From positions 1 through 64,000 of the forward strand of contig NZ_WQHX01000001.1 in NCBI RefSeq assembly GCF_013035425.1: 64,000 nucleotides of DNA, read 5' to 3'. This document shows, in pieces, positions 9,974 to 53,429 of the stretch. How positions within the stretch are numbered: the stretch's first letter is position 1; the number at the start of each line of letters is the position of its first letter. The translations under genes and the position numbers were made by a program. The notes beneath the pieces are model-generated. The model searched no databases, had not been told where the DNA came from, and was given only the letters and a program-made list of their open reading frames with translations. The stretch comes from Ruegeria arenilitoris (lineage in GTDB: Bacteria > Pseudomonadota > Alphaproteobacteria > Rhodobacterales > Rhodobacteraceae).

Positions 9974-12328
9974 TCAGTTCGGGATCAGATCCGGAACAAT
10001 TGTCACGATCGTTGGGAAGAACCACAAGATGGCAATTCCAACCACTTGAATGACCACGAACGGAATTATTCCCCGATAAATATGGCCAGTTGTTACCTCT
10101 TTAGGTGCCACGCCTCTGAGGTAGAACAACGCGAACCCAAATGGTGGCGTCAGGAACGAAGTCTGAAGGTTCACTGCCACCATGATAGTTACCCATTTGG
10201 GGTCAAACGACCCGCCGTAGATAACCGGGCCTACAATGGGTATCACGATGTATATGATTTCGAGGAAATCCAGTACAAACCCCAGAATGAACAGTACAAG
10301 CATCACGATCAGGAAGACTGTGAACTCGTTGTCAAAACTCTTGAGGAACTGCTGGATATAATGCTCGCCTCCAAACGATATGACCACGAGGTTCAGCAAT
10401 TGTGATCCAATCAAGATGGTAAAGACCATCGATGTCACTTTGGCGGTTTCTCGTACGACCGGAGTGAGCACTCCGCTAGAGAACAGAACCCAGCAGCCGA
10501 ATAGCAGGCCGAACAACGCGAAGATGTAAGCGGCGTAGGCAACGATAAACGCAATCCAGGTTTCTACGGTCACGCCACCCTGATTGATGCGAAGGTCAAA
10601 ATTCACACCCATCAGCAACGCGATGATCACTGCAAAGGTTGACCAGATGATGACTTTACCAGATCGGCCTTGATCTTGCAGTTTCCTATATGCCGCGAGC
10701 ATGATTGCCCCACCAGCGCCCAATGCTGCAGCAGGTGTCGGATTGGTTATGCCGCCAAGTATCGAACCAAGCACAGCGATGATCAGAACCAGCGGTGGGA
10801 AAACCACCCTGATCAAGTCATTGGTCGCGCAGCGTGCCGCTGCCTCTTTGCAGCCGTATGCAGCCAAAGCAAAAGGCAAAGCCAGCAACAGGAATGTCGC
10901 CCCCGATGATGTGGTCGGCGATATCAACAATATGTCAAACAGCAACATCAGCACCAGACCGATGGCTCCGACGATCAGCGGTTGTGCAGCGCGCGACGGT
11001 GCGATGCCTCTGGCCATCGCCAGCATGAGCCCAAGCAATACGACAACAACAGCCACGCCGTTTCCGATCGGCGCTGCCGAAGCAATTTTTGCTTCGCGAG
11101 CCGCCACCAATTCTTCTTCGCTCAGACGTTCAGCGCTGGCGGCACCTCCTGCGGCGTCAATTTCCTCCTGCTCAGCGACGGCCTGATCCCACGCGGATTG
11201 GCCATGAAGCTCGATCATCGACGCCTGACACTCGGGTGACACGTTGGTACGCAGCGATGCGCCCTCAGAAACGTCTGAAAAGGCTGAAACTGAGATATTT
11301 TGGCTGCCAATCACACCCGCGCTGCCAAGCAGAACCGCACCGACTATTATCGCGACCGGTATTCCCAACAGCCAAGTCAGACCTTCGGAACGGGTGATGG
11401 GTTCGCCTGTTCCTCCTGAAAGTTCAACTGCTGGAGCTTTCTCTGGGTTTAACAATGCATAGCCAAACGCATAAAGCGCATATAGCAGCGCCAGCATTAT
11501 ACCCGGCAACAAAGCTGCCTGGAACAAAGTCCCAACTGATACCACGGCTGGCTCACCAAGGTATGTTAATGCGTCGGTACATCCAGCCTCGACCGCGCGG
11601 GTTTCTTGCGCCGTCGAATAAAGATCGCCAGCCAATGTCCCCAGCAGTACGATCACAATCGAAGGTGGAATAATTTGCCCAAGCGTACCCGAGGCGGCAA
11701 TGACACCTGTGGCCAACTCTGGCGAGTAGTTGTTGCGCAACATGGTTGGCAAGGCGAGCAGACCCATGGTCACAACGGTCGCGCCTACGATTCCGGTCGA
11801 TGCCGCCAAGAAAGCACCCACAACCACAATTGACACGGCCAGTCCGCCCGGCAGTGGGCCAAAAACCCGCGCCATCGTGGTCAATAGGTCGTTGGCAATC
11901 TTAGACCTCTCCAAAGTGATGCCCATCAGGACAAACATCAAAACCGCCAGAAGTGTTTCAATGGATTGTCCGGCCAACACACGCTCATTCATTCGGTTCA
12001 CAATGAACGAGACGTTGCGGTCCAGTGCAGTTTCCCATCCAGCCGGGAACACCGGCTCGCCGATTCTTGGCAAGTCCGGATATCGGAAGACGGATATTAT
12101 GTCCGGTTTGACCCCTGAATTCACAAGGTCTCGGTAGGCTTGCGAGCCTGTGTCAATCGCCTGATGGACGAGCAATCCAGCGCTGTCCAACGCCGCAATT
12201 ATTCCGAAAGAAATAACACCCGCTCCACCAATGGCAAATGCCACTGGGAACCCAGAAAGAATACCACCAAAGAGGCAGAAAAATACGATAATCAGGCCTA
12301 TCTCGACGCCATCAAGTCCGAATAGCAT
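9974..12328 (-). CDS. TRAP transporter large permease (DctM type)
   Basis: Membrane subunit that imports a carboxylate-type solute with Na+, fed by the periplasmic binding protein at 13395. At 784 residues it is far longer than the usual 425-450 of DctM. Recognisable core: SGFPVAFAIGGAGV (about 25-38), GAFLAASTGIVGATVVTMGLL (171-191), GTLGQIIPPSIVIVLLGTLAGD (214-235) and, near the C-terminus, LQTSFLTPPFGFALFYLRG. Extra material includes a hydrophilic segment at about 55-105 and an insertion at about 240-500 that contains added transmembrane helices and an acidic, helical soluble stretch (about 340-420). Long DctM proteins of this kind occur with TakP-type binding proteins. It starts 17 bases after the small permease gene. 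Confidence 0.9.
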   Translation of the reverse strand: MLFGLDGVEIGLIIVFFCLFGGILSGFPVAFAIGGAGVISFGIIAALDSAGLLVHQAIDTGSQAYRDLVNSGVKPDIISVFRYPDLPRIGEPVFPAGWETALDRNVSFIVNRMNERVLAGQSIETLLAVLMFVLMGITLERSKIANDLLTTMARVFGPLPGGLAVSIVVVGAFLAASTGIVGATVVTMGLLALPTMLRNNYSPELATGVIAASGTLGQIIPPSIVIVLLGTLAGDLYSTAQETRAVEAGCTDALTYLGEPAVVSVGTLFQAALLPGIMLALLYALYAFGYALLNPEKAPAVELSGGTGEPITRSEGLTWLLGIPVAIIVGAVLLGSAGVIGSQNISVSAFSDVSEGASLRTNVSPECQASMIELHGQSAWDQAVAEQEEIDAAGGAASAERLSEEELVAAREAKIASAAPIGNGVAVVVVLLGLMLAMARGIAPSRAAQPLIVGAIGLVLMLLFDILLISPTTSSGATFLLLALPFALAAYGCKEAAARCATNDLIRVVFPPLVLIIAVLGSILGGITNPTPAAALGAGGAIMLAAYRKLQDQGRSGKVIIWSTFAVIIALLMGVNFDLRINQGGVTVETWIAFIVAYAAYIFALFGLLFGCWVLFSSGVLTPVVRETAKVTSMVFTILIGSQLLNLVVISFGGEHYIQQFLKSFDNEFTVFLIVMLVLFILGFVLDFLEIIYIVIPIVGPVIYGGSFDPKWVTIMVAVNLQTSFLTPPFGFALFYLRGVAPKEVTTGHIYRGIIPFVVIQVVGIAILWFFPTIVTIVPDLIPN

Positions 12329-12345
12329 TGTCTTGGTCTCCGTCC

Positions 12346-13272
12346 CTAATGTGCGCCTTCGTAGGCTTCTTCACCATCGCCAAGGCTGTCTTTGTCGAGG
12401 TATTTTCCAACGCTTTCAGGCCCTTCAACATATTCCAGATAGGATCTGTAAAGGAATGCAATGGCGTGCAAGAACACCATGCCCGCAAACGCGACCAGTA
12501 GAATCTTGAAAATGAAGTATGCGTTGAAACCGTTTGGGCTGAAGCCAATGGTTTCAACGTTCCAGCGCAAGGCACGAGACTTCATTACAAGGCGATCCAA
12601 CGTATCGCTGGCCGAGGGTTTCGGAACGATCAAGTGGCGCCACATAAAGTACCAGCCGTACATCCAAGTCAGAACAGCCATTGGCATCATGAACAGAACC
12701 GATCCCAGCATATCAATGACACGTTTGGTTCTATGACTGACCCCGGCATAGATCAGGTCCACGCGAACGTGACCTCCCTGCACGAATGTGTAGGTGCAGC
12801 AGAGACAGACGACCATGGCATTATAAAGTTTCAGCTCTTCAGCATACCAACTGATATCCATTTGAAACGGGATACCCAGACCAAACGCCATGTCTGGCCG
12901 TGCAAACACGCGTTGCATGAAAACGATCACGATCTGCTGAATAACCATCAAAAGGCCAGCCCATGCAAAGAAACGTCCCGTGGTGTTGGCAAAGCCTTCG
13001 AGGCCGCGGACCATGCCCCACATGAAATTCCGGTAGTAGAGGCCGATTGCCGTCAGAACCAAAAAAAGTGTGAACACAACAAAGAAAAACTCTACCGAAC
13101 CACCGTAGTAGACAAAGCGCATGATTGCTTCTTTGTCCGACCAATTCAGCCAGAGCTGCGGATGCGTAATGGCGTATCCAAAATTATAAAAGGCTTCGGC
13201 AATGTTCTGAATGAACCATATCAGTCCATTCCACAGGGCGCCGAAAAACGAGATGCCGTTATCGTCCTGCAT
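12346..13272 (-). CDS. TRAP transporter small permease (DctQ type)
   Basis: Small membrane subunit, about 308 residues, longer than classical DctQ (about 160-230). Several hydrophobic segments are seen, for example FFFVVFTLFLVLTAIGLYY (about 60-80), AWAGLLMVIQQIVIVFM and FKILLVAFAGMVFLHAIAFLY near the end. The Q-type signature region is around VCLCCTYTFVQGGHVRVDLIY. ATG 13270-13272 (MQDDNGISFFG) is preferred over the upstream in-frame start at 13299 because GGGGAC sits 6-7 bases before it. It lies between the binding-protein and large-permease genes. Confidence 0.85.
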   Translation of the reverse strand: MQDDNGISFFGALWNGLIWFIQNIAEAFYNFGYAITHPQLWLNWSDKEAIMRFVYYGGSVEFFFVVFTLFLVLTAIGLYYRNFMWGMVRGLEGFANTTGRFFAWAGLLMVIQQIVIVFMQRVFARPDMAFGLGIPFQMDISWYAEELKLYNAMVVCLCCTYTFVQGGHVRVDLIYAGVSHRTKRVIDMLGSVLFMMPMAVLTWMYGWYFMWRHLIVPKPSASDTLDRLVMKSRALRWNVETIGFSPNGFNAYFIFKILLVAFAGMVFLHAIAFLYRSYLEYVEGPESVGKYLDKDSLGDGEEAYEGAH

Positions 13273-13346
13273 GTTGTCCCCAGGTCGTCTCGGTTGCACT
13301 GCTGTTTATCGTGGTATGGTCGTGTCCGAGCATGTGCAACGGGTAA

Positions 13347-13372
13347 GGTTTCCCCGCGTCCGCGGAGAAACC
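13347..13372 (-). other. Intercistronic hairpin between TRAP binding protein and permease
   Basis: GGTTTC-c-CCGC, 4-base loop, GCGG-a-GAAACC, in the 122-base gap between the binding-protein and small-permease genes. No T-run follows on the minus strand, so it is more likely an mRNA-stabilising structure that lets binding protein exceed permease than a terminator. Confidence 0.6.
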
Positions 13373-13394
13373 AGTTAGTTTTTGGTTATGAGTG

Positions 13395-14477
13395 TTAGCC
13401 GCGAACGCGATCGCGCTGCGCGGTGTAGGCACCCGACGAAAGGTTCAACCATGCCGACGAAGCAGCCATTGACTCCATGGCGCTGTCGTGAATTTTCTTG
13501 AACAGTTCGTCGCCCATATTTTCGTCCAGAACTTCCTGGCTTGCGGTACCGAACGCGTCCCAGACAGTATCCGGGAATTCCATGACTTTAACGCCGCCCG
13601 CCTGCAGACGCTGCAATGCAGCGCCATTGTTGGCCAGGAATTGAGCTAGGTTCCACTGGTGCGCTTCGCCTGCCGCGATCTCGATAATCTTTTGCTGAGC
13701 GGGTGTCAGGCTGTCAAAGACTTCTCGGTTGGTCGCCAGCGAAAGACCCGCACCCGGCTCATGGAAGCCCGCTGTGTAATAAGTCTTTGTTATTTCCTGG
13801 AAACCGGCCTTTTCGTCTGCCCAGGGACCGATCCACTCGGTTCCGTCGATCGCGCCTGATGACAGAGCCTGATAAACTTCCGAGCCCGGAATATTCTGTA
13901 CCGACGCCCCAAGTTTGCCCAGAGCCTTGCCACCCAGACCAGGCATACGGAACTTCAAGCCGTTGAAATCATCGGGGCTATTGATCTCTTTCGAGAACCA
14001 GCCGCCTGCCTGAGCACCAGTGTTACCGGCAAGGAAAGACTTAAGGCCAAAAATCTGACCCAGCTCGTCATGCAGTTCCATGCCGCCATCGTGGTAGTAC
14101 CAGTTTACCAGCTCTTGAGCGGTCATTCCGAAAGGAACAGCTGTAAAGAATGCATATCCTGGGTGCTGACCGACAAAGTAGTAGTCCGCCGCGTGATACA
14201 TATCGGCCTGTCCAGACGACACGGCGTCGAATACTTCGAATGCTCCGACCAGTTCGCCAGCCGCTTTGATATCAACTGTCAGGTTGCCATCCGACATCGC
14301 GGTGATGCTGTCGGCGCAGCGCTGAGCGCTGTCGAAAACGCCTGCTAGGCCACGACCCCACGAGGTAACCATTGTCAAAGTGCGCTTGCCCTGAGCATAG
14401 GCTGGTGCTGCCAGCGCTGTAGCTGCGGCTGCAGATCCACCAAGTGCTGACGTTTTAAGAAACTTACGGCGATCCAT
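13395..14477 (-). CDS. TRAP transporter substrate-binding protein (TakP-like)
   Basis: Periplasmic solute receptor of the DctP family, 360 residues. The N-terminus MDRRKFLKTSALGGSAAAA with ALAAPAYA is a twin-arginine-like signal. Mature features resemble the 2-oxo-acid/mannitol-chloroaromatic group: GNTGAQAGGWFSKEIN, LKFRMPGLGGKALGKLG, GAIDGTEWIGPWADEKAGF. The TakP family binds pyruvate and other 2-oxo acids with Na+; the ligand here is inferred only. ATG 14475-14477 is chosen because GGGGAGGATC lies just upstream; the frame extends to 14498. First gene of the TRAP operon, divergent from the two-component genes. Confidence 0.9.
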   Translation of the reverse strand: MDRRKFLKTSALGGSAAAATALAAPAYAQGKRTLTMVTSWGRGLAGVFDSAQRCADSITAMSDGNLTVDIKAAGELVGAFEVFDAVSSGQADMYHAADYYFVGQHPGYAFFTAVPFGMTAQELVNWYYHDGGMELHDELGQIFGLKSFLAGNTGAQAGGWFSKEINSPDDFNGLKFRMPGLGGKALGKLGASVQNIPGSEVYQALSSGAIDGTEWIGPWADEKAGFQEITKTYYTAGFHEPGAGLSLATNREVFDSLTPAQQKIIEIAAGEAHQWNLAQFLANNGAALQRLQAGGVKVMEFPDTVWDAFGTASQEVLDENMGDELFKKIHDSAMESMAASSAWLNLSSGAYTAQRDRVRG

Positions 14478-14726
14478 GTGAGTGATCCTCCCCTTCATAA
14501 TTCACGACCCGAGCGAAGCCCGGACCAATTGATCTCAGTGCGCGCCAGCCTACTGACACTCGATTGAAAGTGAATACCAAGAACTACGTAGCTGAGCCTG
14601 TTTTTTGCCACTCAACGCTGAAAATCAGGGCTGTTTTGCGTTTTGTAACCCCAGTCTTCAGTTCTTTGACACCGGATTCGCCCAATCTTTTTGCAATTTT
14701 CCGCTGGCTTGCGTATCGATTCGTCT

Positions 14727-16163
14727 ATGAGGGGATTTCGTAACTTAATTTCGCTGACCTACGGACAGAAGCTGTCGCTCGTGGCAGCAATCCCCCTGAT
14801 CGTGGCAGTGGCAGCTATTGCGTTTTTTGTCGCGTACGAAGCCCGTGCAACCGCCGAAAGGGAAATTCAGGCGTTAGAGCGCCGATTGGTCGAAGCGAAG
14901 AAAATCGAGTTGCGTAATTACGTGACACAAGCGCGTAACGGATTCGCATATATTTACGGGCGGGCCTCACCTGAAGATCAGGCTGCGAAAACTCTGGTCA
15001 CTCAAATTCTGTCTGCCATGATTTACGGAAAGGACGGCTTTTTTTTCGTTTATGATTATGAAGGCAACAACCTCGTAAGCCCTCGCCAGACTGAATTTAT
15101 CAACCGAAATTGGGTTGGTTTGACGGACAGTGACGGAACACCTGTCGTTGACGAATTCATCCGCCTCGCCCGACAAGGCGCAGGATGGCACAGTTTCATG
15201 TGGCAGAAACCGTCGACCGGGGAAGAAGCACAAATGATCGCGTACGTCGTTGGTTTGCAGGATTGGCGCTGGGTGGTTGGAACCGGAGTGTTCATTGATG
15301 ACATCGTCGCCACGGTGGCAAACGCACGCGCCGAAGTCGAAGCCCGTGTTCAGCGAACATTCCTATATATCGGCGGAATCGTACTTGCTGCGGTGCTGAT
15401 CGTTTTCGCCTCGGGCATGTTGCTGAACTTCCGTGAGCGCAGGCTGGCTGACGCCAAACTCAAAGAACTGACCCAACGCGTTTTCGATGCACAAGAAGAA
15501 GAACGTGGTCGAGTGGCACGTGAACTGCACGACGGTATCAGCCAGATATTAGTCGGCGTCAGATATGCGCTGGACAACGCCCGGCGACGACTTTCGCGGG
15601 GTGATGATGAAGGTGCGCGGGTGCCATTGGACAAAGGTATAGAAAACTTAGGCAGCGCCATCACGGAAGTTCGGCGCATAAGCAGAGACCTACGCCCTGG
15701 TGTTCTGGATGATTTGGGCCTTGGGCCAGCGCTCAAAGCTCTGACCGACGACTTTCGCGAACGAACCGGGATCGAAACTGAATTTTCGACGGTCGTATTC
15801 CGTAACAGGCTGGATCAGGACAGCAAGATCGCCCTTTATCGGATTGCCCAAGAAGCTTTGACCAATATTGAGCGCCATTCCGGTGCGACACATGTAACTA
15901 TAGATTTGCGTGGTCACAAAAAGGGCGCGACCATGCGGATCACCGACAACGGTCATGGCTTACCCAACGGCCCGGATCGCGTCAGCACAGGCATCGGCCT
16001 GCGAAACATGCAAGAACGAATCGAACAGCTTGACGGATCACTGCGTATTCTGTCATCCCGCGGGGCACGCGGCGGCACGGTAATCGAAGTGAGCCTACCA
16101 CTGAGTCACTTGCTTTCTCCACAGGAAGAAGATGCAACTCCGAAACGAAAGGCCGGTTCCTGA
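14727..16163 (+). CDS. Cache-domain sensor histidine kinase (NarX-like)
   Basis: Membrane sensor kinase of about 478 residues. Order: transmembrane helix (about 17-37), periplasmic Cache-type domain (about 40-205) with GKDGFFFVYDYEGNNLVSP and DWRWVVGTGVFIDDI typical of sCache_2, second transmembrane helix (about 213-232), HisKA_3 dimerisation domain with EERGRVARELHDG (phospho-accepting His near residue 268), and HATPase_c with NIERHSG, DNGHGLPNG and GIGLRNMQERI. Start at ATG 14727 (MRGFRNLISLTYGQKL) or the upstream ATG 14691. It is divergent from the TRAP operon, and Cache-type kinases often sense the solute of a neighbouring TRAP system. The stop TGA shares a base with the next ATG. Confidence 0.9.
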   Translation: MRGFRNLISLTYGQKLSLVAAIPLIVAVAAIAFFVAYEARATAEREIQALERRLVEAKKIELRNYVTQARNGFAYIYGRASPEDQAAKTLVTQILSAMIYGKDGFFFVYDYEGNNLVSPRQTEFINRNWVGLTDSDGTPVVDEFIRLARQGAGWHSFMWQKPSTGEEAQMIAYVVGLQDWRWVVGTGVFIDDIVATVANARAEVEARVQRTFLYIGGIVLAAVLIVFASGMLLNFRERRLADAKLKELTQRVFDAQEEERGRVARELHDGISQILVGVRYALDNARRRLSRGDDEGARVPLDKGIENLGSAITEVRRISRDLRPGVLDDLGLGPALKALTDDFRERTGIETEFSTVVFRNRLDQDSKIALYRIAQEALTNIERHSGATHVTIDLRGHKKGATMRITDNGHGLPNGPDRVSTGIGLRNMQERIEQLDGSLRILSSRGARGGTVIEVSLPLSHLLSPQEEDATPKRKAGS

Positions 16164-16807
16164 TGACGAACGCGATCCGAGTCCTGATCGTAGACGACCA
16201 CCCCATGGTCGCCGAAGGGATCCAATCTTTATTGGAAAGCTATGACGAGATTGAGGTCGTTGGCACCCTGTCTAACGGGCAAGAGGCCGTAGATCAGGTA
16301 ACTACTTTATTGCCAGATGTAATCCTGATGGACCTTAATATGCCAGGCCTTGGAGGGCTGAGCGCAACCGAAATCATCTTAGAGCGCCTGCCGGAAACGC
16401 GCGTTCTAATCCTGTCGATGCATGACAGCCCGGAATATATCTCGACCGCGCTGAGCCATGGTGCCCGCGGCTATGTACTCAAAGATGTCCCTACGGATGA
16501 GATCAAACAGGCCATCGACGCGGTTATGCGAGGTGACAAATACCTTTGCACCGGGGCCAGCGGTTCGCTGAAACCCAAGCAGGATAATGCACGAGAAGCT
16601 CTGACTGGGCGTGAACAAACCATCCTGCTGGAACTGGCGCAGGGTAAATCCAACAAAGAGGTTGCGTTGGGTTTGGATATTTCAGTTCGCACGGTCGAGA
16701 CGCACAGAAAGAACATAAAGCGTAAGCTTGGCATCTCATCGACTGCTGGCCTGACCCGATACGCACTGGAACACGGAATGCTGCAAGGAACCGGCCATAG
16801 TTTCTGA
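16163..16807 (+). CDS. NarL/FixJ family response regulator
   Basis: 214-residue DNA-binding response regulator. Receiver domain: IVDDHPMVAEG with acidic pocket Asp11/12, phospho-acceptor Asp57 in LMDLNMPG, Ser and Lys positions in LILSMHD and YVLKDV. LuxR-type HTH at about 145-205: LTGREQTILLELAQGKSNKE and SVRTVETHRKNIKRKL. It overlaps the kinase gene by one base (TGATG), so the pair is translated together. The likely target is the adjacent TRAP operon; this is inferred from the arrangement. Confidence 0.93.
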   Translation: MTNAIRVLIVDDHPMVAEGIQSLLESYDEIEVVGTLSNGQEAVDQVTTLLPDVILMDLNMPGLGGLSATEIILERLPETRVLILSMHDSPEYISTALSHGARGYVLKDVPTDEIKQAIDAVMRGDKYLCTGASGSLKPKQDNAREALTGREQTILLELAQGKSNKEVALGLDISVRTVETHRKNIKRKLGISSTAGLTRYALEHGMLQGTGHSF

Positions 16808-16843: not shown

Positions 16844-17245
16844 TTACGCCGATGGTCGCGCGCCAACGGCCTGCCCAAAGAAAACCAAAGTGCCATCTTC
16901 GTCGATTACGTGAAACTCTCGCTGATGATAGGGTTGATTGAATGGCGGTCGAACGCGACCCGGTGGCAAATCGGACAAGTTAGGTTCCAATTGTGCGTAC
17001 AGCTCATCAATACCAATAACATCGATGTAAAATGACTGATTATCCCCCAACGGTCGCCCGTCAGGTCGTTTCGGACATTCAAGAAGGCGGATCGCGACAC
17101 TCCCATTTCTGAGAAATGCGTAATTTTCCTGTCTAAAGGTACAGGAAAATCCAAGGCGGTCACAATAGAAGTCGATTTGGTTTTGCAACGAAGAACACAA
17201 AACAAACGGCGTCAGCTGCACAATTTCAGACACGTGGCCCTCCAT
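16844..17245 (-). CDS. VOC family protein downstream of oxygenase
   Basis: 133-residue glyoxalase/bleomycin-resistance-fold protein: VQLTPFVLCSSLQNQIDFYCDRLGF, YAFLRNGSVAIRLLECP, SFYIDVIGIDELYAQLEP, QREFHVIDEDGTLVFFGQ. ATG 17243-17245 is used because residues upstream in the open frame (to 17446) do not fit the family and overlap the oxygenase gene. It begins 34 bases after the BesD/HalD-type oxygenase stop, suggesting one transcript. Substrate unknown; the pairing with an oxygenase suggests a role on the same small molecule or in resistance to it, which is only inferred. Confidence 0.75.
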   Translation of the reverse strand: MEGHVSEIVQLTPFVLCSSLQNQIDFYCDRLGFSCTFRQENYAFLRNGSVAIRLLECPKRPDGRPLGDNQSFYIDVIGIDELYAQLEPNLSDLPPGRVRPPFNQPYHQREFHVIDEDGTLVFFGQAVGARPSA

Positions 17246-17279
17246 AGTAAGTGACGAGCGCAACTTTTTCGGCGACCGT

Positions 17280-18125
17280 CTAATCCAGAAGTCGGTCTTT
17301 CCGAATACCTTCCCGTTCATAATGTTGTGGTAAAACGCGACCGTATAGTTGTCGGGTCCTCTCGACACCCCCGCACATTCCCTCGGCCTCGACAAATGAG
17401 AAAATACCAACGTAGCGTCTCCGTTCGCCTTCGACCGGCGCAACACGATGCAATGAATATCGGCCCTTGAATATCTGCAAATCGCCAGGCTGCAGATCCA
17501 GATGCCGGACCTGGCTCATGTTTCCGTCTAAAACAGAAGCTACTGCGTCAAAGTTTTCCTCTTTGGAAGTGCGGAGGTTGGGCACATATTGAAACACACC
17601 ACCCTTTTCACCATTCTGAATGGCCAAGGTTACAGTGTAATTATTCGTATCGAAATGCCATGGGAATCCTTGCCCTTTTTCCACGACATTAATGATTACG
17701 TCAGCCAGCGGATCGTCGTACCGAAAAAAACGCTCTTTCGGTTCGTCTAGCGTTGCCCGGATGAAAGGTAAAAATGATGCATCCTCGTAAATACGGCGCA
17801 GCGGACCAGATTTGGCAAAATTATCTGCAGGCACAAACGCGTTGGAGCGTTCATAAAAACGGCGTATTGGGTGCCCGACCCCGAAACGCGTATCGTCTTT
17901 GGTAAAGTAAGCGTTCGTGCGATTAAAGGAACGGTGCGCCTTGTCAGAGACCCCGTCTGCCTCGCTCAATATATGATTAAGGCCGTTCTCATGCACGAAA
18001 CCAGGTAAGACTGCGCAGCCTTCCTCGTTTAGATCACGGCGAAGATCATTGATCATCTGAGTGTAACCCCACGAATCCGGACGATCGATTGGGTATCGCC
18101 CGAGGTCAACCAGATCCTGCAGCAT
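17280..18125 (-). CDS. Fe(II)/2-oxoglutarate oxygenase, BesD/HalD type
   Basis: 281-residue non-haem iron oxygenase. The layout resembles the BesD/HalD family of amino-acid radical halogenases and hydroxylases: N-terminal MLQDLVDLGRYPIDRPDS, iron motif WHFDT with His157 and Asp159, distal His226 in SLHRVAP, an Arg cluster at 235-237 that would hold 2-oxoglutarate, and a C-terminal LYGR. Halogenases of this family have Gly in place of the Asp, so this protein should hydroxylate rather than chlorinate. The substrate is unknown. ATG 18123-18125 is chosen because GGAGGAG lies 6-7 bases upstream; the open frame reaches 18245. A VOC gene follows. A paralogue lies at 52650. Confidence 0.8.
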   Translation of the reverse strand: MLQDLVDLGRYPIDRPDSWGYTQMINDLRRDLNEEGCAVLPGFVHENGLNHILSEADGVSDKAHRSFNRTNAYFTKDDTRFGVGHPIRRFYERSNAFVPADNFAKSGPLRRIYEDASFLPFIRATLDEPKERFFRYDDPLADVIINVVEKGQGFPWHFDTNNYTVTLAIQNGEKGGVFQYVPNLRTSKEENFDAVASVLDGNMSQVRHLDLQPGDLQIFKGRYSLHRVAPVEGERRRYVGIFSFVEAEGMCGGVERTRQLYGRVLPQHYEREGIRKDRLLD

Positions 18126-18350
18126 GATCCGCTCCTCCATTTTTTTCGCTGTCAGGTTCAGATTGTCTGAACACGACATGTCGATCATGCCCGTTTCGGA
18201 CATAGACCTGACGTTTTCAGACCTGAAAAATCCCACGGGTCGCAATCAAAAGAGGCTCAAATTTCGCGGAAATTCCCAACACAGGCCACTTTACGCAATA
18301 AAATGTCGCAAAAATCATCTTTTCCGTTAGGAAATTGGGTCGATTGCCTG

Positions 18351-18409: not shown

Positions 18410-18457
18410 ATGAGAGCGCTAGTCGTAATCGTAGGAAACAAGCGCATGGGCCTGTAA
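18410..18457 (+). CDS. ilv leader peptide (MRALVVIVGNKRMGL)
   Basis: 15-codon ORF with five consecutive branched-chain codons, Leu-Val-Val-Ile-Val (codons 4-8). AAGGAG (18395-18400) lies 9 bases before the ATG. It precedes a terminator and then ilvB. This is the arrangement known for ribosome-mediated attenuation of ilv operons: stalling on these codons when charged Leu, Val or Ile tRNA is scarce would alter leader folding and let transcription continue. The stop codon lies in the loop of the hairpin 18442-18484. Confidence 0.85.
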   Translation: MRALVVIVGNKRMGL

Positions 18458-18484
18458 CGGTAAACCATAATCGACCCCATGCGC
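18442..18484 (+). promoter_or_regulatory. Candidate antiterminator hairpin of the ilv leader
   Basis: GCGCATGGG (18442-18450) pairs perfectly with CCCATGCGC (18476-18484). The left arm could alternatively pair with GCGCT (18416-18420) in the leader coding region through AGCGC (18441-18445). The right arm overlaps the terminator stem by only 2 bases (18483-18484), so mutual exclusion is not complete on paper. Confidence 0.6.
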
Positions 18485-18512
18485 CTCCGAAGACCTCGGA
18501 GGCTTTTTTTTT
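18483..18512 (+). terminator. Attenuator terminator before ilvB
   Basis: GCCTCCGA (18483-18490), loop AGACC, TCGGAGGC (18496-18503), then nine T (18504-18512). This is a textbook intrinsic terminator placed 39 bases before the ilvB start codon, so it must act as a conditional terminator. Confidence 0.92.
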
Positions 18513-18551: not shown

Positions 18552-20303
18552 ATGACACGTGAGATGACCGGCGCAAAAATGGTTGTTCAGGCCCTCAAGG
18601 ATCAGGGCGTGGATACGGTATTCGGGTACCCCGGTGGCGCCGTCCTACCGATCTATGACGAGATATTTCTGCAAAACGACATTAGGCACATTCTGGTACG
18701 GCACGAACAGGGCGCGGTTCATGCAGCCGAAGGTTATGCCAGATCGACCGGCAAGCCGGGCGTGGCCCTTGTTACATCAGGCCCGGGCGCTACGAATGCC
18801 GTTACCGGCCTGACTGACGCGTTGATGGACTCGATCCCGATTGTGGTCCTGACTGGTCAGGTTCCGACCTTCATGATTGGCTCTGACGCGTTTCAAGAAG
18901 CTGACACGGTCGGCATTACCCGCCCGTGCACCAAACATAATTGGCTGGTAAAAGACACAGATTCTCTTTCAGGAACCATGCACGAGGCATTCCACGTTGC
19001 CACGTCTGGTCGCCCGGGTCCTGTTTTGATCGACATCCCCAAGGACGTTCAATTCGCCACAGGCGAATACGCTGCGCCAAAACCTTCGACCTCGCACTAC
19101 CAGCCGGTACTGAAGGGCGATCTTGAAGAAATCACCGAACTTGTTGCGGCAATAGAAACTGCCAAGAAGCCAATATTCTATACTGGCGGCGGCGTTATCA
19201 ATTCCGGCCCTGCCGCAAGTCAGCTTTTGCGCGAACTTGTCGACAGCACGGGATTTCCGATCACGTCGACACTCATGGGGTTGGGTGCCTACCCTGCCTC
19301 TGGTGAAAACTGGCTTGGGATGCTGGGGATGCATGGCCTTTATGAGGCCAATCTGGCGATGCATGACTGCGATCTGATGATCAATATTGGCGCACGTTTC
19401 GACGACCGGATCACCGGGCGCATCGATGCGTTTTCACCCAACTCCAAGAAGGCACATATCGATATCGATCCGTCCTCGATCAACAAAGTGATCCGCGTAG
19501 ACATTCCGATTGTTGGTGACGTTGCACATGTTCTGGAAGACATTCTTAAAGTCTGGAAAGCACGAGGCCGCAAAACAGACTCAGCGAATGTAAAAAAGTG
19601 GCAGAACCAGATAGCGGAATGGCGGAAGGTCAACTGCCTTGCATTTACCAACAGTGAAAAGTCGATCAAGCCACAATATGCGCTGCAACGCCTTGAGGAG
19701 TTGACCAAAAAACACGACCGTTATGTCACGACTGAGGTTGGGCAACACCAAATGTGGGCGGCACAGTATCTGGGTTTCGAAGATCCAAACCGCTGGATGA
19801 CATCCGGCGGGCTCGGGACCATGGGCTATGGCTTTCCTGCGTCAATAGGTGTGCAAATGGCGCATCCGGACGCCTTAGTGATAAATGTTGCGGGCGAAGC
19901 ATCGTGGCTGATGAACATGCAGGAAATGGGCACCGCTGTGCAATATCGCCTGCCGGTAAAGCAGTTCATACTCAACAATGAGCGCCTTGGCATGGTCCGT
20001 CAGTGGCAGGAGTTGTTGCACGGCGAGCGGTATTCGCACAGCTGGTCAGAGGCTCTGCCCGATTTTGTAAAACTCGCCGAGGCGTTTGGAGCAAAGGGTA
20101 TTCTATGTTCTGATCCCGCGGACTTGGACGAAGCGATCATGGAAATGATCAATTACGATGGCCCGGTCATCTTTGATTGCGTTGTTGAAAAACACGAAAA
20201 TTGTTTCCCAATGATACCGTCAGGCAAAGCACATAACGAGATGCTTTTGGGCGAGGCAGAGACACAAGGCGTTATTCAGGCGGGTGGTGCTGTTCTCGTA
20301 TGA
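18552..20303 (+). CDS. ilvB: Acetolactate synthase large subunit
   Basis: Catalytic subunit (583 residues) of acetohydroxyacid synthase, the first common step of valine, leucine and isoleucine synthesis, using thiamine diphosphate and FAD. Catalytic Glu52 is in RHEQGA, followed by AEGYARSTGKPG and TSGPGATNAVTGL; the central FAD-binding domain includes GARFDDRITG. The C-terminal thiamine-diphosphate motif reads GEASW (residues 448-450 GEA) where most family members have GDG, so a Mg ligand would be Glu449 instead of Asp; NNERLGMVRQWQ follows. Expression is probably controlled by the upstream leader peptide and terminator. A membrane protein gene separates it from ilvN. Confidence 0.95.
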   Translation: MTREMTGAKMVVQALKDQGVDTVFGYPGGAVLPIYDEIFLQNDIRHILVRHEQGAVHAAEGYARSTGKPGVALVTSGPGATNAVTGLTDALMDSIPIVVLTGQVPTFMIGSDAFQEADTVGITRPCTKHNWLVKDTDSLSGTMHEAFHVATSGRPGPVLIDIPKDVQFATGEYAAPKPSTSHYQPVLKGDLEEITELVAAIETAKKPIFYTGGGVINSGPAASQLLRELVDSTGFPITSTLMGLGAYPASGENWLGMLGMHGLYEANLAMHDCDLMINIGARFDDRITGRIDAFSPNSKKAHIDIDPSSINKVIRVDIPIVGDVAHVLEDILKVWKARGRKTDSANVKKWQNQIAEWRKVNCLAFTNSEKSIKPQYALQRLEELTKKHDRYVTTEVGQHQMWAAQYLGFEDPNRWMTSGGLGTMGYGFPASIGVQMAHPDALVINVAGEASWLMNMQEMGTAVQYRLPVKQFILNNERLGMVRQWQELLHGERYSHSWSEALPDFVKLAEAFGAKGILCSDPADLDEAIMEMINYDGPVIFDCVVEKHENCFPMIPSGKAHNEMLLGEAETQGVIQAGGAVLV

Positions 20304-52649: not shown

Positions 52650-53429
52650 ATGATATTGGATAACATTATCGATCTTGAATCCTACCCAATCGGTGACCGC
52701 AATTTTCGCAATGCCTGCAAGCGAACCTTCGATCTGGACGGGGTGTTGGAGATGCCTGGCTTCGTAAAAGACGAGGCCGTTAAATCAATTTGCGCGGAAG
52801 GTTTGACTAACTCTCAAGCTATTTACGCAAAAACTGAGCTACACACAGTGTATTTGAGCCCACAGGATCCGCAATTCCCACCTGAACATCCGCGAAACCG
52901 ACTGGTGCAGTCCTCAAAGGGGTGTCTGACCGACGATCTGATTCCGCAAGGGTCGGCGCTGCGTACGCTTTATAATGCAGAACTTTTTCGAGAGTTTCTG
53001 TGTGCCGTTTTGGAAGAGGGCGCATTGTTCGAATACGCCGACCCTCTGTCTTCAATAAATCTGCATTTCGCCGAAAAAGGTCAAGAACTCGGATGGCATT
53101 TCGACAACTCTTCATTTGCCATTACCCTGATGATTCAAGCACCTGAAAAGGGTGGCCAATTCGAGTACATCAAGGACGTCAGAGACGCCGACTCAGGCGA
53201 AATGAACTATTCTGGTGTTGCTGAAGCATTGGATGGGATTACACCGGTTGAAACTCTGAATGCTCGGGCGGGAACGTTGGTTTTCTTTCGTGGTCGAAAC
53301 TCAATGCACCGTGTCGCCCCGAACGAAGGCGATGTAACGCGAATTCTAGCCGTGCTGGCATATAACGCCGAACCGGGCATTTCCCTATCCGAAAGCGCCC
53401 GCAAGACTTTTTATGGCCGAATATCTTGA
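52650..53429 (+). CDS. Second BesD/HalD-type Fe(II)/2-oxoglutarate oxygenase
   Basis: 259-residue paralogue of the protein at 17280. Start MILDNIIDLESYPIGDRNF, metal motif GWHFDN with His150 and Asp152, distal His220 in SMHRVAPNEG and Arg231 for 2-oxoglutarate. IQAPEKGGQFEY and a terminal FYGRIS match the family layout. The Asp argues for hydroxylation instead of halogenation. The two copies differ clearly over their N-terminal halves, so substrates may differ. It is flanked by the bactofilin terminator and aqpZ and appears to be a single-gene unit; regulation unknown. Confidence 0.8.
   Translation: MILDNIIDLESYPIGDRNFRNACKRTFDLDGVLEMPGFVKDEAVKSICAEGLTNSQAIYAKTELHTVYLSPQDPQFPPEHPRNRLVQSSKGCLTDDLIPQGSALRTLYNAELFREFLCAVLEEGALFEYADPLSSINLHFAEKGQELGWHFDNSSFAITLMIQAPEKGGQFEYIKDVRDADSGEMNYSGVAEALDGITPVETLNARAGTLVFFRGRNSMHRVAPNEGDVTRILAVLAYNAEPGISLSESARKTFYGRIS

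Follow-up and report, generated by a model that had tools for sequence, protein, structure and literature searches.

BesD-type enzymes are valued because they functionalise C–H bonds of free amino acids, but not many have been characterised. Hydroxylases with an HxD motif on the BesD fold are already known: Hydrox, or LDO (7JSD, 9OET), hydroxylates C4 of lysine, a C–H bond of a free amino acid, as given in the part of the source drawn on here (PMC11185610). The oxygenase of Ruegeria arenilitoris described below has in common with Hydrox/LDO the BesD fold, the HxD...H triad and the arginine for 2-oxoglutarate (2OG). However, the two are only about 16–18% identical, the acidic and histidine residues with which BesD holds lysine are not found at the corresponding positions of the oxygenase, whose branch carries D138, R185 and, towards the C-terminus, a YGR motif. 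With the halogenases BesD, HalA, HalB and HalD it shares family PF23169, the fold and an arginine (R93, corresponding to R77 of BesD), yet D159 stands where BesD, HalA and HalB have glycine, and the substrate contacts are mostly unlike. A literature search over the titles and abstract openings of the top-ranked matches gave no account of this HxD branch.

The window, that is, the whole stretch of DNA analysed, comprises 64,000 nucleotides (contig NZ_WQHX01000001.1, positions 1 to 64,000). Its relevant features are:

14691–16807, plus strand: histidine kinase/response regulator pair, 3′ of the oxygenase and VOC genes and convergent with them
16844–17245, minus strand: VOC (glyoxalase/bleomycin-binding-type) gene (PF00903; NCBIfam below cut-off; PDB 3fcd)
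17280–18125, minus strand: HalD/BesD-family Fe(II)/2OG oxygenase gene (ORF; PF23169; AlphaFold2; Foldseek and VIA)
17415–17417, minus strand: R237, predicted 2OG carboxylate arginine, equivalent to BesD R218 by alignment (95/96 family rows)
17448–17450, minus strand: H226, distal iron ligand from sequence (95/96 family rows)
17649–17657, minus strand: H157-F158-D159, proximal His and Asp iron ligands from sequence (H157 and D159 in 96/96 family rows)
17847–17849, minus strand: R93, equivalent to the substrate-carboxylate binder R77 of BesD by profile and family alignments (Arg in 67/96 family rows)
18552–20303: ilvI, 5′ of the oxygenase gene and divergent from it

Neighbouring genes here and below (ilvI, the histidine kinase/response regulator pair, the TRAP-type transporter, an aquaporin-like gene and the glycine-betaine-type transporter of one paralog) are named from their sequences. 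The longest frame of the oxygenase runs over 17280–18245 (minus strand); its start is most plausibly the ATG at 18125, with GGAGG just 5′ of it, which would give a product of 281 aa.

This 281-aa protein scores 57.3 bits against Pfam PF23169 (HalD), over the curated cut-off of 26, and an NCBIfam scan of it returned no family even at E 10. The AlphaFold2 model has a pLDDT of 93.4. Its nearest folds by VIA-align are HalB, Hydrox, BesD, HalA and HalD with Z scores of 21.4–22.4 (HalB 22.4, Hydrox 22.0, BesD 21.8; the second Hydrox entry, 9oet, 18.9), against 16.5 for the next fold. Foldseek places the model with HalD and HalB at E values of about 1e-14, and a profile search with the oxygenase retrieves 7jsd and 9oet, both of them HxD enzymes that hydroxylate lysine. 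The preliminary description had assigned the enzyme to the BesD/HalD type and had proposed a comparison with BesD structures. The assignment holds on both the Pfam score and the fold, and the predicted structure falls with the BesD group (Z about 22, against 16.5 or less elsewhere).

For the active site we aligned 96 of 138 distinct sequences found, together with four PDB segments; sequences above 73% identity were thinned to one in eight and all of the rest were retained. H157, D159, H226 and R237, the last sitting 11 residues past H226, occur together in 94/96 family rows; of the two exceptional rows one lacks H226 and the other R237, and both retain H157 and D159. The triad is thus intact and numbered as previously described, and the arginine cluster noted at that time is also present (R222, R227, R235–R237). 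At the position of D159 the HalB, BesD and HalA rows have Gly, whilst the lysine hydroxylase row has Asp, as do 96/96 family rows; the Gly-for-Asp mark of the halogenases is therefore absent. Given HxD instead of HxG and the precedent of Hydrox/LDO, a hydroxylase is to be expected and not a halogenase. The same had been proposed from the motif before, and fold, motif and precedent all support it. The family also has invariants of its own (D138, G175, G176, R185, G221 and G262, each in 96/96 rows), and most rows carry the C-terminal YGR motif (Y261 in 88/96, R263 in 91/96).

What the pocket may accept was read from alignments and not from model coordinates. In simulation, according to the part of that source used here (PMC13244439), BesD contacts the amine of lysine through D239, D143 and E123 and its carboxylate through R77, H137 and W241. 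Four of these contacts can be aligned to the oxygenase, W241 and D239 lying outside the aligned segment. R77 is retained as R93, whilst H137, E123 and D143 are changed to F154, L140 and T160. Because these three differ, leaving 1/4 alignable contacts, lysine is an unlikely substrate. The retained R93 fits a carboxylate-bearing substrate, and the natural reading is a carboxylate other than lysine; "amino acid" as the substrate class would be a guess, since the residues with which BesD meets the amine group are not retained (L140, T160).

The oxygenase is nearly universal within the genus and patchy outside it. At E ≤ 0.001, matches were found in 60/101 searched genomes, including 53/54 in the genus (the source genome counted); the single genus genome without a match at this threshold is G046, and the copy in a further genome, G049, has an in-frame stop. 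The 80 loci retained are 58–82% identical to the oxygenase, and such recurrence goes well past what chance would produce. Across the Rhodobacteraceae it occurs in 31/197 sampled genera at E ≤ 1e-85. At class level at least 42/385 genomes hold a family-level match at E ≤ 1e-60, at least 8 of these above 430 bits, both counts being lower bounds as at most six candidates per genome were scored.

Neighbouring genes were counted over 62 loci (L091–L133 without L095, plus L163–L182), 29 of them orthologous (sharing 50% identity or more with the window oxygenase) and 33 paralogous; the neighbour seeds were chosen from some of the same loci after their neighbours had been viewed, and the counts describe a pattern and are no blind test. 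Several loci are near-relative pairs (L113/L114, L123/L127, L124/L129, L110/L163, L102/L107 and L108/L111). A beta-hydroxyacid dehydrogenase gene lies directly 5′ of the oxygenase on the same strand in 5/29 orthologous loci (L104, L106, L110, L163 and L165), of which L106, L110 and L163 are near relatives and not independent. By tblastn none was found in the flanks of the remaining 24/29, where L096, L100, L107, L111 and L169 have under 750 nt upstream, too short to tell. A further set of 27 family loci, viewed with flanks of 1.5 kb, adds one more such dehydrogenase gene, at L208; in this set L226 duplicates L119. Dehydrogenase domains were verified on the L163 copy, where the order is SBP_bac_5, enolase-superfamily, dehydrogenase, oxygenase, Zn-alcohol-dehydrogenase-like, IclR (opposite strand) and M24 hydrolase. 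A peptide-type ABC substrate-binding protein gene lies within 3 kb in 3/29 orthologous loci, and 2/29 have a PuuR-like regulator gene in divergent orientation.

Among the paralogs a DddP-like M24 gene lies directly 3′ on the same strand in 8/33 loci and was not found in the flanks of the other 25/33. The eight HxD paralogs concerned are L116, L117, L118, L125, L130, L132, L172 and L175. Three M24 copies were scanned and reach 316–400 bits for DddP (the DMSP lyase family), under its 600-bit cut-off. In a quick tree of 82 of the 100 aligned rows (SH-aLRT support only; M24 marks omit L175) the M24-positive paralogs are spread over more than one branch; the deep forks of this tree are open and the orthologous rows are not shown as one clade. 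An isochorismatase-type gene stands 3′ of four closely related paralogs, the L123 copy having below-cut-off matches only, and a divergent LysR gene occurs in 10/33 paralogous loci. None of these pathway neighbours of the relatives is found beside the window oxygenase. The pattern among the relatives looks catabolic, and for the window copy it is suggestive but falls short of proof.

In our reading the Ruegeria oxygenase stands alone and is an Fe/2OG hydroxylase that acts, probably in catabolism, on a small zwitterionic carboxylate. To the statement that it is a soluble Fe(II)/2OG hydroxylase of BesD/HalD fold, acting by OH rebound on a small carboxylate substrate and probably in catabolism, we would give a probability of about 0.55. 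The enzyme would bind Fe(II) and 2OG and form a ferryl; the substrate, a small molecule held on R93 by its carboxylate, would lose a hydrogen to this ferryl from an sp3 carbon. OH rebound instead of halogenation would follow, because D159 occupies the site where halogenases put chloride. Judging from the relatives only, the substrate may be a small zwitterionic carboxylate such as an unusual amino acid or a betaine-like compound, and hydroxylation would probably fall near the beta carbon, the beta-hydroxyacid dehydrogenase taking the product on in other lineages; the overall role may be a catabolic or detoxifying step. In R. arenilitoris no dehydrogenase gene lies beside the oxygenase, and the VOC protein would not be needed.

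On a broader and more tentative view, against which the odds lie somewhat, the HxD HalD branch may be a large alphaproteobacterial group of catabolic hydroxylases that open zwitterionic nutrients. Second enzymes (beta-hydroxyacid dehydrogenase, DddP-like M24, isochorismatase-type hydrolase) would have been recruited branch by branch, the Ruegeria gene being the free-standing form. In the titles and abstract openings of the top-ranked literature matches, we found no description of a pair of HalD with a DddP-like protein or with a beta-hydroxyacid dehydrogenase. Being widespread and having a different pocket, the HxD branch is a source of new substrates, and it can serve as an outgroup in tracing the origin of halogenases from hydroxylases. 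If the genome neighbourhoods are what they appear to be, the branch is also a pointer to an unassigned nutrient of marine roseobacters.

The VOC gene lies 34 or 46 nt 3′ of the oxygenase on the same strand, according to whether it starts at ATG 17245 (133 aa) or at GTG 17233, which has GGAGGG 5′ of it (129 aa). Its product scores 28.3 bits against PF00903 (Glyoxalase; cut-off 20.6) and 79 bits against PDB 3fcd, a structural entry bearing just the name "Lyase". It aligns with bleomycin-binding VOC proteins (3FCD, 1XRK, NCBIfam ble) across most of its length, but identity is 31–34% among the 15 plasmid matches listed and the score is under every NCBIfam cut-off for bleomycin-binding families. 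By similarity it is most like the bleomycin-binding type. Set by eye against the FosA pattern, it would have T12, S71 and F122, none of them a ligand residue, at the places of the His/Glu metal ligands; its structural alignment partners were 3fcd and 1xrk alone, with no metalloenzyme among them. The preliminary description had suggested that this protein handles the oxygenase product, and the close same-strand spacing speaks for it, as does the presence of VOC 3′ in 34/40 loci whose oxygenase is at least 74% identical. This falls to 2/19 loci at 66–74% and 0/21 below 66%, however, giving 36/80 named loci in all, some with partial or broken copies. Moreover, at E ≤ 1e-20 VOC occurs in 45/54 genus genomes, 0/47 other relatives and 2/197 family genera, against 31/197 genera for the oxygenase, and one of the two, G587, falls outside the set of 32 genomes in which the oxygenase was found. 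Each gene occupies the ilvI interval without the other: in G046 VOC is flanked by the response regulator and ilvI and no oxygenase was found there, and G101 has the order response regulator, VOC, ilvI with its oxygenase about 104 kb off, whereas in six other genera (L202–L207) the oxygenase is beside ilvI with no VOC found, the response regulator also being visible in five. On synteny and distribution we therefore rejected VOC as a pathway partner; it looks like a positional neighbour, and the suggestion that it handles the product is now very improbable indeed. dN/dS was set aside, synonymous sites being saturated in 11/12 comparisons (the sole value, VOC against L033, is 0.077).

Demethylation, desaturation or action on a protein would also be conceivable for 2OG oxygenases of the BesD-type fold class. 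Demethylation of an N-methyl or S-methyl compound such as a betaine-type osmolyte, with no stable hydroxyl left, would suit the DddP-like genes next to 8/33 paralogs and their sub-threshold DMSP lyase scores, as well as the paralog L126, which lies on the same strand 3′ of glycine-betaine-type ABC transporter genes; yet a DddP-like M24 gene was found in 0/29 orthologous loci, and for the window enzyme we regard this chemistry as unlikely. The same-fold relatives HalA, HalB, HalD and BesD chlorinate, which keeps in view that the oxygenase might still halogenate or carry out a different 2OG reaction, for example a desaturation or an epimerisation. The evidence against this bears on halogenation only: Asp stands at the halide position in 96/96 family rows, and we rejected a halogenase on D159. 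The combined alternative seems quite unlikely. The folds that come next, at Z of about 16, include PHD2, OGFOD1 and Tpa1, and many orthologous loci show no evident partner gene when their ORF lists are read by eye, both of which would agree with a protein or peptide hydroxylase like PHD or the ribosomal oxygenases. The small-molecule enzymes of the BesD group nevertheless score about 6 Z units higher and the relatives adjoin transporter and catabolic-type genes, which makes a protein substrate very unlikely. Hydroxylation of a small carboxylate is the reading we prefer.

A link of the oxygenase to branched-chain amino acids through ilvI was considered and rejected. The two genes adjoin each other in Ruegeria and its close relatives, but we take this as position only, because no ilvI was found in the 1.5-kb flanks of 21/21 oxygenase loci (L208–L228). 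Directly before ilvI, 18410–18512 (plus strand) holds a leader peptide, MRALVVIVGNKRMGL, followed by a hairpin and a T run, and has the look of an attenuator responding to branched-chain amino acids. This segment folds only slightly better than its shuffles (z −1.44; 18/200 shuffles fold equally well) and scores 28.7 bits against Rfam Atu_C8, under the cut-off of 50. On the other side, TRAP-type transporter genes (minus strand) stand beside the histidine kinase/response regulator pair (plus strand) over 9974–16807, and the binding-protein cluster of this region is seen again in 41/80 loci.

The window contains a second HalD-family gene with HxD at 52650–53429 (plus strand; PF23169, 62.5 bits), about 32% identical to the first and adjoining the aquaporin-like gene. 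HalD-family homologs also occur on Enterobacter and Pantoea plasmids (L131 and L133), where they lie beside genes for an ABC substrate-binding protein and a DUF2817 protein; one of these homologs is named "arpA protein".
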